NCBI RefSeq assembly: GCF_029953265.1
Contig: NZ_JASBAO010000001.1
Coordinates: 1,502,001 to 1,566,000, forward strand
Reading direction: 5' to 3'
DNA from: Commensalibacter oyaizuii
GTDB taxonomy: Bacteria > Pseudomonadota > Alphaproteobacteria > Acetobacterales > Acetobacteraceae
Length of the DNA: 64,000 nucleotides
A program made the translations under genes and the position numbers. Shown in pieces: positions 4,108-57,240 of this stretch (its first letter is position 1; the number at the start of each line of letters is the position of its first letter). Under the pieces are notes generated by a model. It was given only the letters and a program-made list of their open reading frames with translations, was not told the origin of the DNA and did no database searches.

Positions 4108-5919
4108 ATGAGTACAATGACCTTACCTACACAACGCAGTTATCGCGTTGTTGACCATGCTTATGATGTTATTGTTGTGGGGGCTGGTGGTTCTGGTCTA
4201 CGCGCAACTTTGGGAATGGGGGCAGCAGGTCTACGCACAGCCTGTATTACCAAAGTTTTTCCAACACGCAGTCATACCACTGCGGCTCAAGGGGGTATTG
4301 CTGCCTCTTTAGGCAATATGGCCGAAGATCACTGGCAATGGCATATGTATGATACCGTCAAGGGATCAGATTGGCTAGGCGATCAAGATGCAATTGAATA
4401 TTTATGTCGCGAGGCTGTTCCCGCCGTCTATGAATTAGAACATCTGGGGGTTCCTTTTACCCGCACCGAAGATGGCAAAATCTATCAACGACCCTTTGGT
4501 GGGCATATGCGTGATTTTGGTAAGGAACCTGTTCAACGTGCCTGTGCTGCGGCCGACCGAACAGGACATGCCATATTACACACCTTGTATCAACAAAGCT
4601 TGAAACACGATGTTGAATTCTTCATAGAATATTTTGCCATTGATTTAATTATGGACGAAGAAGGTGCATGTAAAGGGGTCATGGCGTGGTGTTTGGATGA
4701 TGGTACCATGCATCGTTTCCGCGCAAACCTAGTTGTCTTAGCCACAGGTGGTTATGGACGTACTTTTCAATCCTGTACTTCTGCCCACACTTGTACGGGG
4801 GACGGAAATGCCATGGCCATGCGTGCAGGCATTCCAACCCAAGATATGGAATTTGTACAATTCCATCCAACAGGAATCTTCCCTGCTGGATGTCTATTGA
4901 CGGAAGGATGTCGTGGCGAAGGCGGATATCTGACCAACGGTGAAGGCGAACGTTTCATGGAACGTTATGCCCCCCATGCCAAAGATCTTGCTTCTCGCGA
5001 CGTGGTATCGCGTGCTATGATTGTTGAAATTAACGAAGGACGTGGCTGTGGTCCTAAAAAAGACCATATTATGCTTCATCTGGAACATCTAGGCGCAGAT
5101 ATCTTGCACGAACGTTTACCCAGTATCGTTGAAACATCACGCGTGTTTGCAGGGGTTGATGTAACCAAAGAACCAGTTCCTGTTTTACCGACTGTACACT
5201 ATAATATGGGTGGTATTCCAACCAACATTCATGCCGAAGTTATCCGTCCAACCAAAGATAATCCAGATGCAACCGTTCCAGGCCTAATGGCTGTTGGCGA
5301 GGCTGCATGCGTTTCAGTCCACGGTGCTAATCGTTTGGGTACAAATTCTTTGCTTGATCTAATTGTCTTTGGACGTGCTGCAGCACTAAGAGCCAAAGAA
5401 ATTATAAAGCCCAATTCTCCTATTGCACCGCTACCTAAAAATGCCGGAGAATCAGCATTGGCACGTCTAGATGCCCTTAGATATGCCAATGGAAAAACCA
5501 GAGTATCAGAGATGAGAGATACTCTACAACGCACCATGCAACGCCACGCATCTGTGTTTCGCAATAATCAAAACCTAAAAGACGGGGTGGATAAAATTAA
5601 AAATATCTGGTCTGGACTGTCAGATATTTCTGTTTCAGATCAATCTTTGATTTGGAACACAGATTTAATGGAGGCCCTAGAATTCGAAAACCTACTTGCC
5701 AATGGTACAGTAACCATGGTCAGCGCAGAAGCCCGTAAAGAAAGTCGTGGTGCCCACGCACATGACGATTATCCAGACCGTGATGACAAAGACTGGTTAA
5801 AACACACTGTGTCCTTCCTTAATGAAAAAGGAGATGTTTCTTTAGAATATCGTCCTGTTCACATGAAAACATTAACAGACGAAGTTCAGGTTTTCCCACC
5901 CAAAAAGCGGGTATATTAA
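4108..5919 (+). CDS. sdhA: succinate dehydrogenase flavoprotein subunit
   Basis: 603-aa catalytic subunit oxidising succinate to fumarate. The FAD-binding GAGGSG lies at residues 25-30. His56 in FPTRSH is the residue that covalently carries FAD, followed by [14 protein letters not shown]. The substrate and FAD end is marked by [18 protein letters not shown], and the C-terminal [13 protein letters not shown] segment is normal. Full length for alphaproteobacterial SdhA. The start at 4108 gives the standard N-terminal extension. Third gene of sdhCDAB, 20 bases before sdhB. Confidence 0.98.
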
Positions 5920-13747: not shown

Positions 13748-15259
13748 ATGTGCATTCAGAAATATTTATATCAAACCACTATTCTCACCTTTGTTTTAGG
13801 ATTAGGGGCATGCACAGTAGGCCCCAATTTCCACAAAGATCATATGCAGATCCCTGAGCAATGGACTGAAAAGGTTTGGAAACGCCCTGCAACAGCACAA
13901 GAAATTGCTCAAGCAGCAAATGACATGCGTAGATGGTGGGAGCAATTTCACGATCCATTATTGAACCAATTGGTTGAAAAAGCCATTGCAAATAACTACG
14001 ATTTAAAAATCGCAGGCCAAAGGATTCTAGCCGCGCAATCTTTACGTGACCAGCAATCTTCGAACTGGTATCCACAACTGGACGGATCAGCAGGATATGG
14101 ATATCAAACCACATCTTATACATTATCAAATACGATGCACCAAAATGGTAATGCCAATAACACGGTTGTACGACGATATGGTGCGACATTTAGCTGGCAA
14201 CTTGATGCATTTGGTCGAATTCGTCGTATGGTGCAATCCCAAGAAGAAGCAGTCAAAGCATCAATTGAAGATAGACGTTCAGTTTTATTGACCATGTTGT
14301 CTCAGTTGGCAAATAATTACGTAACCCTTCGAAACATGCAGTTACGCCTAAGAATTGCTGACGAAAACGTAGCAATCGCACAATATGTTTATAATTTGAC
14401 GCAAAAACAATATCAAGAAGGAACGGGAACAACCCTTAGTACTGCTCAGGCTCAAGCTGAACTAGAAGCACAACGTGCGTCCAGAGAACCCCTTAAAACC
14501 AGCATTACTCAAATTACGCATGCAATTGATGTGCTTTTGGGACAAGCTCCAGGCACAACTGAAGCGTTATTAAAAGAGGAAAAACCCTTACCTGACTTGC
14601 CACCCTATCCACCCTCTATTCCTTCTATCGCGCTTGCCAATCGTCCAGACGTGCGAATGGCCGAACACCAATATGCAGAGGCAACAGCTAATATTGGAAT
14701 AGCTGTTTCTGAACTTTATCCCCAATTTACCATTGATATGAGTGCCATGCCGACCACCTCTTTCACCAGTCAAATGGCAAACATTGCAAGTTTAGTATCC
14801 AGCAGTTTTATTAATATGTCGATCCCAGGATTACATGGTGGACGACTTTCTGCCCAAGTTAAACAAGCACAGGCACAAGCAGAAGCATCCCGATTACAAT
14901 ATCGTCAAACTATCTTAAATGCGCTTAAGGAAATAGAGGATGTCATTGCGGCTTGGGGTGACGATGCCGAGCATGTTGAACTGCTGCACCGATCAAAATT
15001 AAGCAGTCAATTAGCCCTAAGCCGCGCGCAAAAACTATATAAAGCAGGATTAACAGGATATCTGGATGTATTAACTGCTCAACGAACGGCAACCAATGCC
15101 GCAAATGCCGAAGCAATTGCCATCTTGGAACGCTTTCAAGATGCTGTTAATCTATTCACCGCTTTGGGGGCAGGATGGCAAGGTGTCGATTTAACCAAAA
15201 CAGAATTACCTGTAACGTTAGAGCAACAAAATATATGGGCAAAAGCGATCAAACAATAA
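13748..15259 (+). CDS. NodT-family outer-membrane efflux lipoprotein
   Basis: About 503-aa TolC-like outer-membrane factor of the RND/NodT family. It starts MCIQKYLYQTT, with the lipobox LGLGAC giving the lipidated Cys, then TVGPNF and PEQW, the standard NodT opening. Two repeats rich in long helices follow, with the LANRPDVRMAEHQY consensus. The frame opens upstream at 13715, inside the hlyD gene. ATG 13748 has a GAGA box about nine bases upstream and puts the lipobox at the usual place, so it is preferred. It completes a DUF1656-HlyD-NodT set. Confidence 0.9.
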   Translation: MCIQKYLYQTTILTFVLGLGACTVGPNFHKDHMQIPEQWTEKVWKRPATAQEIAQAANDMRRWWEQFHDPLLNQLVEKAIANNYDLKIAGQRILAAQSLRDQQSSNWYPQLDGSAGYGYQTTSYTLSNTMHQNGNANNTVVRRYGATFSWQLDAFGRIRRMVQSQEEAVKASIEDRRSVLLTMLSQLANNYVTLRNMQLRLRIADENVAIAQYVYNLTQKQYQEGTGTTLSTAQAQAELEAQRASREPLKTSITQITHAIDVLLGQAPGTTEALLKEEKPLPDLPPYPPSIPSIALANRPDVRMAEHQYAEATANIGIAVSELYPQFTIDMSAMPTTSFTSQMANIASLVSSSFINMSIPGLHGGRLSAQVKQAQAQAEASRLQYRQTILNALKEIEDVIAAWGDDAEHVELLHRSKLSSQLALSRAQKLYKAGLTGYLDVLTAQRTATNAANAEAIAILERFQDAVNLFTALGAGWQGVDLTKTELPVTLEQQNIWAKAIKQ

Positions 15260-54885: not shown

Positions 54886-55623
54886 TTATAAACGTCGCGC
54901 AAATAAACGAAGAACCAACCCTATACAAATCTGAAATAATTCTGAGTCGTATCTAGGCCCTTCATCACGCAAAAAAGCATGTTGTGCATTAAATTCATGC
55001 CACTCATATGTAGACCCTGCGGCTTGTAACGCCTGCTGAATTTTAATTCTGCCCTCAAAAGGAACATGAGGATCTTGCCTTCCCCATACAAACATGGTTT
55101 CGCCTTTTAATTCATCCAAACGATGAATAGTATCATCGGATTGGCCCTGACCCAAAGTTGAATCATGCACGTTCGTTGCATAAAAACAAGCTGCTGCCAA
55201 AACATCGGGGTTTAATGCTGCACGCAACGCCAAATGCCCCCCCAAGCAAACACCCATTGTACCAATCTTACCGTTGCAATACGTATAGGTTCTGGCCCAT
55301 TTAATTACCGCGTCAGCATCAGAATCATAAGCTGAAACAGGTTTTTTAAATTTTAAACAATTACCACGATCAGTTCCCTCTTTATCATAAGCTAAAACTG
55401 TACCCAAAGGCTCGTATTCATGATACACTTCTGGAACAAGAACGATATATCCTTGTCCAGCAATATAGGCGGCTAATCGTCGAATAGGTTGCGTTACTTG
55501 GTAAATTTCTGAATAAAAAATAACTGCTGAATATTTTCCCTCCGTAGCAGGACGAAAAACATGACAACGCATTGTACCCGTCGGTGTTTCAAGATCAATG
55601 GTCTCGTCAGTCTGAATAATCAT
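54886..55623 (-). CDS. dienelactone hydrolase family protein
   Basis: 245-aa alpha/beta hydrolase. The nucleophile Cys is in GVCLGGHLALRAA, where true serine hydrolases have GxSxGG. The acid is Asp in WGRQDPHVPFEGRI and the base His in FNAQHAFLRDEGP, the Cys-Asp-His triad of dienelactone hydrolases. The protein is predicted to be cytosolic. The natural substrate is uncertain; many family members act on esters other than dienelactone. Single gene. Confidence 0.88.
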   Translation of the reverse strand: MIIQTDETIDLETPTGTMRCHVFRPATEGKYSAVIFYSEIYQVTQPIRRLAAYIAGQGYIVLVPEVYHEYEPLGTVLAYDKEGTDRGNCLKFKKPVSAYDSDADAVIKWARTYTYCNGKIGTMGVCLGGHLALRAALNPDVLAAACFYATNVHDSTLGQGQSDDTIHRLDELKGETMFVWGRQDPHVPFEGRIKIQQALQAAGSTYEWHEFNAQHAFLRDEGPRYDSELFQICIGLVLRLFARRL

Positions 55624-56147
55624 ATTTTATTCACTTTCTCTTAATAAAAATAATATCAAAATATACAATTAGATTTATTTAATACCTCTAATGATCCTTC
55701 ATTGTCACTGTTAAGCACAATTAAACACAATTTTCTTTAAATAAAATACACAAAACTTAAAACCGAAGAAAATCGTGATTTTTCGTATCAATCATTTTTA
55801 GATGAACATGCCATATATCAACAAATAATATCTGAGATTATGATCTAATAATCATAAATAAAACGATCTAAAAACTCGTGTACAATTTATTATTACTTAT
55901 TTTGTGTGATACTGGATTGAATATGAAATAAGAATAATTATTTCTTTAGATTGGTACACAGCCTTGTACCAATTAATATTGTTATTTCCTTAGCCACCAT
56001 AATAAACTTATGATGAATTAAAAGTAAATAAATACTTCAATAAAATATTAGACAATAGAAATAAATAAAAATATTTCAAGCCAACACCACTTTTATAAAA
56101 TATAGCATCTATTGACTTGAATCTTCATACTATGAAATCATTCGATT
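55624..56147. other. AT-rich spacer with a small perfect hairpin
   Basis: 520 bases with no ORF. TTGGTACA (55951-55958) and TGTACCAA (55965-55972) form a perfect 8-bp stem with a six-base loop. It lies about 180 bases beyond the bacteriocin-like gene on its downstream side and 330 bases before the hydrolase start, so it could be a processing or regulatory site. Nothing else is recognised. Confidence 0.4.
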
Positions 56148-56522
56148 TTACAATAATGGAATTGGAATAAAGCAATCTAAACCAGCGAGAAGACCACCAA
56201 CAGCAGTTAAAGCAATTCCTGCGGCCATACCTCCAAATCCTGCAACGGCACCTGCAATCCCTGCGGCTGCGGCTGCGGCCCCAGCTGCAACTAAGGGAAC
56301 ACCAGCAACGGTCAAGCTGGATCCAAAAGCCGAAGCAATCAAACCAATCCCTGCTGCGCCAACGCCAGCCACACCGACAAGCGCTGCTAGACCACCAGCG
56401 ACAGCTCCAACAGGGATAAGTGGAATTCCTGCCCCTAGCCCTAGGCCACCAAGAAGACCTACGATTCCTAAAAAGCCACCTGTGACTTCAGTTACTTCTA
56501 TATTCGTTAGTTCTCTTATCAT
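56148..56522 (-). CDS. bacteriocin/microcin-like peptide with double-glycine leader
   Basis: 124 aa from ATG 56522, which has AAGGAT seven bases upstream; the frame opens at 56561 but without support. Residues 1-16 read MIRELTNIEVTEVTGG, a double-glycine leader very like those of microcin V and class II bacteriocins (conserved Leu, Glu, Val, then Gly-Gly). The 108-residue core is almost wholly hydrophobic and rich in Gly, Ala, Val and Leu with glycine-zipper-like patterns, ending in one Cys and FIPIPLL. It could form pores after export by a peptidase-containing ABC transporter. No transporter or immunity gene is adjacent. Alternative: a glycine-zipper membrane protein. Confidence 0.6.
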   Translation of the reverse strand: MIRELTNIEVTEVTGGFLGIVGLLGGLGLGAGIPLIPVGAVAGGLAALVGVAGVGAAGIGLIASAFGSSLTVAGVPLVAAGAAAAAAGIAGAVAGFGGMAAGIALTAVGGLLAGLDCFIPIPLL

Positions 56523-56865
56523 GATTTTATCCTTACGATAATAAATATAGTAACAAAACAACCATAGTTTCTTAGATAAAATAAGTCACAATAGTGCCTG
56601 TTACATTAACACAATAAAATTATAACATAGTAAAATCAAGTTATTTTCAATTAAATATTACTTATTAGTAAATAATTAATACTAAATTAATAGTAAATTA
56701 ATAGTAAATTAATAATATTAATATTTAATTTACATAAAGTATTATATCAATTATTATGAATATTATATTAATCATTATTCTATTTATTTTTAACAATCAT
56801 GTTAAATTTAATTATTTTATTTTATATACTCTATTTTTATAATATATTTAATTTTTTTTCACAAT
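56523..56865. promoter_or_regulatory. AT-rich upstream region of the bacteriocin-like gene with 11-bp tandem repeats
   Basis: 340 bases of almost pure A/T. At 56683-56714 an 11-base unit TAAATTAATAG occurs nearly three times in tandem, matching the helical repeat of DNA, so it may curve the promoter region. It lies about 160-190 bases upstream of the bacteriocin-like start. No ORF seen. Confidence 0.45.
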
Positions 56866-57240
56866 TTAGCGAAAAGAGTATACTGTCATCATGCCTAATA
56901 TCGTTAAAAGAACGGAACATAAAACATGAACCACGATTTCAGTTCCAGCCCACAAAAACCGTCCTTGTTGTAATGACAGTACCACCTCGGAAGAAAAAGA
57001 AGAAAACGTCGACAATCCCCCTAAAAATCCTGTAATCACAAACAAACGCCACGGAACCAATGCAGGGATCATTGTAAAAAGAGCAACCGCCACACCAATT
57101 AAATACCCAGCAATACAATTTGCTGCCAACGTCCCCAAAGGTAAATAAGGAAACAGACCATTTAGCCAGTTCCCTAATCCCCAGCGCATCAAACAGCCTA
57201 ATGCACCACCGACACTGATCATTACAATTGAATTTATCAT
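56866..57240 (-). CDS. crcB: fluoride ion channel/exporter CrcB (Fluc)
   Basis: 124 aa with four membrane helices. [18 protein letters not shown] at the start, [19 protein letters not shown] with the conserved Asn, and [18 protein letters not shown] carry the Fluc signature (GFxGGxTTFSTF form). It exports F- as an antiparallel dimer. A fluoride riboswitch lies directly upstream, which fixes the function independently. Confidence 0.95.

Follow-up and report, generated by a model that had tools for sequence, protein, structure and literature searches.

Class IIa microcins carry a leader of 15–18 residues ending in GG or GA and an unmodified core of about 5–10 kDa, and leave the cell through a C39 exporter, an HlyD-type partner, and TolC, according to the accessible text of two reports (PMC10233263, PMC9746304). 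The catalytic triad of CvaB is given as Cys32, His105, and Asp121 (PMC9746304, PMC11494933, in the portions available), and known immunity proteins reach 216 residues in the available text of PMC9746304. As far as the accessible parts of PMC10233263 and PMC11494933 go, confirmed microcins come only from Enterobacteriaceae (PMC10233263), and microcins tend to adjoin their exporter and number one or two in most genomes (PMC11494933). A further described system is CDZ, whose mature CdzC and CdzD proteins consist to 75% of G, A, V, and I (PMC5380434, available text). Among titles on Commensalibacter or acetic acid bacteria combined with bacteriocins, microcins, or double-glycine peptides, a search with subscription papers mostly outside its reach, none describing the peptides reported here was found.

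The locus analyzed here lies in a 64,000-nucleotide stretch of the Commensalibacter oyaizuii genome, referred to as the window. A gene on the minus strand at 56148..56522, with its ATG at 56522 and a stop codon ending at 56148, encodes a protein of 124 residues. The protein is composed of a 16-residue double-glycine leader, MIRELTNIEVTEVTGG (56475..56522, minus strand), and a 108-residue core (56151..56474, minus strand). The frame is open and its codon usage is that of the locality, and the ORF proposed in the initial annotation is real. The ORF list places the start at TTG 56561, giving 137 residues. ATG 56522 is the better start, because a ribosome-site-like AAGGA, read from the sequence at 56530..56534 (minus strand), precedes it by 7 nt; this stretch is common to the gene found at the same site in C. 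communis. The upstream neighbor at 56866..57240 (minus strand) is crcB (CrcB family, Pfam PF02537), which marks the site in relatives and lies outside the system. A dienelactone-hydrolase family gene at 54886..55623 (minus strand) is the downstream neighbor and marks the other side of the site. A promoter scan found 14 matches, against 8.4 ± 3.6 in shuffles, and is uninformative.

The G+C content is 0.59 at 56200–56399, compared with 0.11 upstream (56600–56799) and 0.23 downstream (55900–56099), confirming the rise over A/T-rich flanks that had been noted at the outset. The suggestion then drawn from it, that the gene may have been acquired, is not supported. The G+C content of the gene is 0.519, and codon usage taken from ten genes of the window would give the same protein 0.532 ± 0.015. 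The amino acid composition therefore accounts for the high value, which is no sign of acquisition. An acquired island, as judged by G+C, is thus rejected on composition and local codon usage; C. communis, too, has a leader-bearing gene at this site.

The leader was scored against leaders of other genes. A position score was built from 25 such leaders, none of them from this gene or its same-site counterpart in C. communis. Of the 3343 start codons in the window, that of the cargo gene comes out highest, at 29.9 bits. The next start codon scores 8.4 bits, leaving a gap of 21 bits, and true leaders left out in turn score 18.9–45.4 bits. On this rank, a chance leader is rejected. Two further models omit this gene and contain the leader of its C. 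communis counterpart. An HMM of 19 leaders places the leader best in the window, with an E-value of 0.41 scaled to the genome (next, 380). A profile of 28 leaders matches it at E 0.033, and matches a 500-residue frame of the same genome, surely background, at E 0.14. The two single-leader profile E-values for this gene are modest. The double-glycine leader recognized in the initial annotation is supported, and is of a type common to the exporter-side genes. A likeness to the leader of microcin V was pointed out at the same time. A search against bacteriocin models had been advised; the 124-residue protein has no match in Pfam, which includes the MccV model (PF17508).

The modest whole-genome E-values for the leader alone, and a core of low complexity found in one genome only, would suit a protein that is no cargo, either a small membrane protein, ordinary or in decay, or a frame that arose by chance, with a leader-like start in each case. 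Against this stand the rank among start codons with its 21-bit gap, codon usage that fits the neighbors, and the DNA of the ribosome site and leader, which is identical to that of the C. communis same-site gene at 55 of 75 positions (E 2e-7 for two 1.2-kb stretches). Such an origin is therefore very improbable. As judged from its sequence, the product is instead very probably an export cargo.

A matching exporter is encoded elsewhere in the genome. The single C39 match of the genome lies in a 729-residue ABC protein at C1:2142060–2144249 (minus strand), about 584 kb from the cargo gene, and an HlyD gene adjoins it. Residues 12–714 of the ABC protein align with solved peptidase-containing ABC-type bacteriocin transporters. 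Cys27, His100, and Asp116, read from the sequence, are spaced as in the CvaB triad. Outer-membrane channel domains give 12 matches in the genome, apparently in six genes. Within the window, two matches to the OEP (outer-membrane efflux) domain fall in one frame at 13961–15169 (plus strand), a TolC-type gene. The initial annotation had proposed a transporter in trans, a proposal to be given up if the genome held no C39-type exporter. The search that it advised found both a C39 ABC exporter and its HlyD partner, and the proposal is well supported.

The exporter is matched by eight loci in named records, seven of them in Commensalibacter at 73–84% identity and one in a Clostridia MAG at 27%. A C39 match is present in all nine genomes of the genus, and a bacteriocin exporter gene (COG2274) is reported for all genomes studied in PMC10149009, in its accessible text. 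The exporter scores 511.7 bits against TIGR03796, below the cut-off of 853.3, and by this measure does not belong to an NHLM/NHLP export system. No modifying enzyme was seen among its neighbors. An S24-type repressor gene lies near it.

Leader and exporter also occur together across the family. Among 299 genomes, 99 have a C39 match and 21 have the leader at E up to 0.05; every leader genome also has a C39 match (P 2e-11). The same is true of the 14 leader genomes from other genera (P 5e-8). The count by genus is the fairest because related genomes are not independent; here all 7 leader genera have C39, against a base of 44 of 101 (P 0.002). E-values were computed per genome, so that about 15 chance genomes are expected at 0.05 among 299. 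The best leader E-value is 0.0011 or less in 12 of the 14 outside genomes, against about 0.3 expected, and an ORF with the leader near its start was read in all 14. A leader match lies within 10 kb of a C39 match in 13 of them; in the other, G141, the two are on different contigs.

The core has a mass of 9397 Da if cut after Gly16. It consists to 84% of G, A, V, I, and L, or to 69% of G, A, V, and I, and contains the single Cys of the protein, residue 117 of 124, in the C-terminal end LDCFIPIPLL. With a GRAVY of 1.75 it is the most hydrophobic among 32 cargo cores compared, which are part of all cores read. The hydrophobic core with one Cys described in the initial annotation is thus borne out, and its 9.4 kDa is the size of a microcin. 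GxxxG occurs 7 times, versus 6.3 in shuffles (P 0.45), and this spacing is not above what composition gives. Among 12 cores tested, a glycine zipper exceeds shuffles in the cargo of contig C3 (13 versus 5.6) and in that of genome G002 (10 versus 4.4). A single-sequence structure model contains three helices; its low quality (pLDDT 64.5, pTM 0.38) did not warrant a fold search.

No relative of the core was found in 39 other relatives, the only match among the 40 genomes being in its own genome, or in plasmid, phage, and PDB sequences. In a search that reaches close relatives only, 595 stretches of genome_contigs and 207 of viral_contigs fit a short pattern, and none was confirmed. Apart from its own gene, the core matches the 299 family genomes weakly at 18 places (E 6e-4 to 0.009, 17–21 bits), most of them in long frames. 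One of these loci, L138, was read and its ORF list includes no leader-bearing gene; we judge the 18 to be matches of composition. The best blastp E-value against 31 other cargo cores is 1.6. Since the core has no relative, there is no conservation by which selection could be demonstrated. Homologues of the core lacking a Gly-Gly leader had been named as evidence that would speak against cargo; none turned up, and with no core homologue of any kind this comparison could not bite.

The gene had been described as standing alone. Locally it does, with no adjoining immunity candidate, but the genome encodes the exporter elsewhere and contains 13 leader-bearing genes. Five are grouped immediately upstream of the HlyD gene and encode Gly-Gly peptides of 100–115 residues, whose leaders include MREISTVEIQFVAGG. 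Two of these five match the Pfam MccV model weakly (13.5 and 11.2 bits versus a cut-off of 27). Seven, including the cargo gene in the window, are scattered, and one is on a plasmid-like contig. The six further chromosomal genes are near 58k, 149k, 234k, 1432k, 1580k, and 1897k of C1. The 28-leader profile finds 12 of the 13 at E up to 0.033 and the 1580k gene at E 0.19. We count the latter, despite the background frame at 0.14, because its leader reads MIRDLSHNEVAQVSGA and blastp relates its core to those of other cargoes (E 4e-10 for the G006 core). It lies near 1580.5k (L194 1534–1845, plus strand) between a GTPase gene and a methyltransferase-like gene. The site looks conserved, as a related cargo adjoins a similar gene in the C. 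melissae-type genomes G006 and G008. A sequence pattern search of the genome gave 34 matches, against 8 for the reversed control. An ORF of 63–67 residues with EIKEITGG at C1:2322259 was not counted as cargo, its start being unlike a leader.

The remaining gene is on contig C3, which looks plasmid-like because it is 9.7 kb long and encodes a Rep_3 initiator; it also has a Hint-domain gene. The C3 cargo (L133 1951–2259, minus strand) has a strong glycine zipper. No exporter gene was seen in the ORF lists of this contig, and the plasmid-borne cargo would depend on the chromosomal exporter. The core of the 56148 gene contains one Cys and the other 12 cores of the genome none. Six other cargo cores compared are hydrophilic, such as the C. 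communis same-site core at −1.47; the cargoes of the exporter thus do not uniformly look membrane-active. In the nine genomes of the genus, the 28-leader profile has 36 matches at E up to 0.05, a plain count in which most matches are in the model or near-copies of its rows and are not independent finds. Cargoes of 40 and 41 residues are encoded in G001 and G004 (L107 1501–1623 and L112 1501–1626, both plus strand). Their ends are alike (FLGRRPGRG, FLGKKPGKG) and quite unlike the long Gly-rich cores. G004 is probably C. communis LMG 31819, and G005, G006, and G007 are likewise probably C. intestini A911, C. melissae AMU001, and C. papalotli MX01.

The same site was compared in relatives. In C. 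communis (L087), crcB is followed on one strand by a leader gene, a META-domain gene, and the hydrolase gene. The leader gene (5301–5510) encodes MLKELTSAEISEVSGG and then 53 residues rich in Pro, Tyr, and Ser. In the window the order is crcB, cargo gene, hydrolase gene; the META gene is absent, and no remnant of it was detected at 55624–56147 (best E 0.15). Among 26 other cargo genes, the C. communis same-site gene has the nearest 5' end (score 56, next 44), a lead due in part to one extra codon common to both genes. The two cores at the crcB site are unrelated.

A scan of the crcB site in G001, G003, G005, G006, G007, and G008 revealed no leader gene, and the META gene is present there. Seven relatives in the genus have the META-domain gene (L087 5714–6160, plus strand) in the interval from crcB to the hydrolase gene. 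In G005 an AraC-type gene, identified by eye, occupies the gap, and in G002 the DNA downstream of crcB differs. A crcB match is present in all nine genus genomes; in G003, a MAG, it is in pieces with in-frame stops (L092 4423–4796, plus strand), unlike in the other eight. The single pair compared fits two histories: a core swapped while its leader stayed, or the arrival of two cargo genes in one gap. We tentatively suggest, as a possibility less likely than its opposite, that in Commensalibacter one exporter serves a library of unmodified secreted peptides whose leader-tagged genes are scattered over the genome, and that a fixed site keeps ribosome site and leader while the whole core is replaced, with 108 Gly/Ala-rich residues here and 53 Pro/Tyr-rich residues in C. 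communis. If true, the leader would serve for docking, and new secreted peptides would originate behind it.

We regard it as fairly likely that the gene encodes a cargo of the genome's single C39-peptidase ABC exporter, exported in trans and acting as a microcin- or CDZ-like competition factor. By homology, the exporter would recognize the leader and cut after Gly-Gly, and the 108-residue core would leave through HlyD and a TolC-type channel. The leader would act as a constant tag in front of cores that differ strongly among the genes. Once exported, the strongly hydrophobic 108-residue core would most likely insert into or aggregate on bacterial membranes. Composition and class make killing the likeliest role, though no immunity candidate adjoins; that the product kills or inhibits bacteria has about an even chance.

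No immunity-like ORF of 40–160 residues with a ribosome site was found within 900 bases of the cargo gene, except crcB. Around nine places examined in the genome, the only immunity candidates are crcB, beside the cargo gene in the window, and frames that overlap the exporter-side cargo genes out of register. This scarcity, together with the presence of C39 throughout the genus, would also fit a peptide that is exported in the same way and is no weapon, serving at the surface or in the matrix for adhesion, aggregation, or biofilm in the insect gut. The EbfG proteins offer a precedent, as small Gly-Gly proteins with a reported part in biofilm and a dependence on a C39 exporter (PMC4997328, accessible text). 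However, cores that differ widely among species and at one site are expected of an arms race more than of a structural component, and one cargo is on a plasmid-like contig, which makes a matrix role rather unlikely. A role directed at the insect host or the bacterium's own population, as a signal, autolysis trigger, or gut-cell modulator, is improbable. Gly-Gly peptides are tied to autolysis in Neisseria gonorrhoeae (PMC11798529) and the genus lives in insects (PMC10149009), both according to the available text, but no gene resembling a receptor or sensor pair was found in the window or read near the exporter, and the S24-type repressor fits either reading.

The 56148 gene is probably a new cargo. 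The exporter is of a known kind; the layout, with one exporter, 13 leader-bearing genes, and widely differing cores, is unusual. Such an insect symbiont, with a single exporter for 13 candidate cargo genes of which eight lie at other places, would be a simple system. It would let one ask how a single Gram-negative exporter serves many cargoes, how producers survive when immunity genes are not linked, and where new secreted peptides come from.

Compared with class IIa microcins, the candidate has a 16-residue leader ending in GG, a core whose 9397 Da falls within about 5–10 kDa, and a genome with a C39 exporter carrying the triad residues, an HlyD-type partner, and TolC-type channel domains. 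It differs in the arrangement of precursor, immunity, and exporter genes, which are not close together here: the exporter is about 584 kb away and no immunity candidate adjoins. The cargo gene is also chromosomal, whereas class IIa microcins are listed as plasmid-borne in the text available to us, and its host is outside Enterobacteriaceae. Class IIb microcins have a Gly/Ser-rich C-terminal end for siderophore attachment, which is lacking in a protein ending in LDCFIPIPLL.

The remaining comparisons are with systems as described in the accessible text of their reports. Like the CDZ system of Caulobacter crescentus (PMC5380434), the locus belongs to an Alphaproteobacterium and combines small proteins rich in Gly and hydrophobic residues (75% there, 69% here) with type I secretion. 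CDZ cores contain GxxxGxxxG repeats, in contrast to the core studied here, where the zipper is not above shuffles. CDZ is also one cluster of two toxins, exporter, and immunity gene cdzI; no such gene lies beside the cargo gene. EbfG1–4 of Synechococcus elongatus (PMC4997328) are likewise several small Gly-Gly proteins needing a C39 exporter, but their reported role is biofilm formation. Prochlorosins and synechococsins (PMC10783134) resemble the present set in their many scattered precursors, common leader, variable cores, and shared machinery. They differ in the ProcM lanthionine synthetase and a leader of about 60 residues, as opposed to leaders of 15–16 residues here and an exporter with no modifying enzyme near it.
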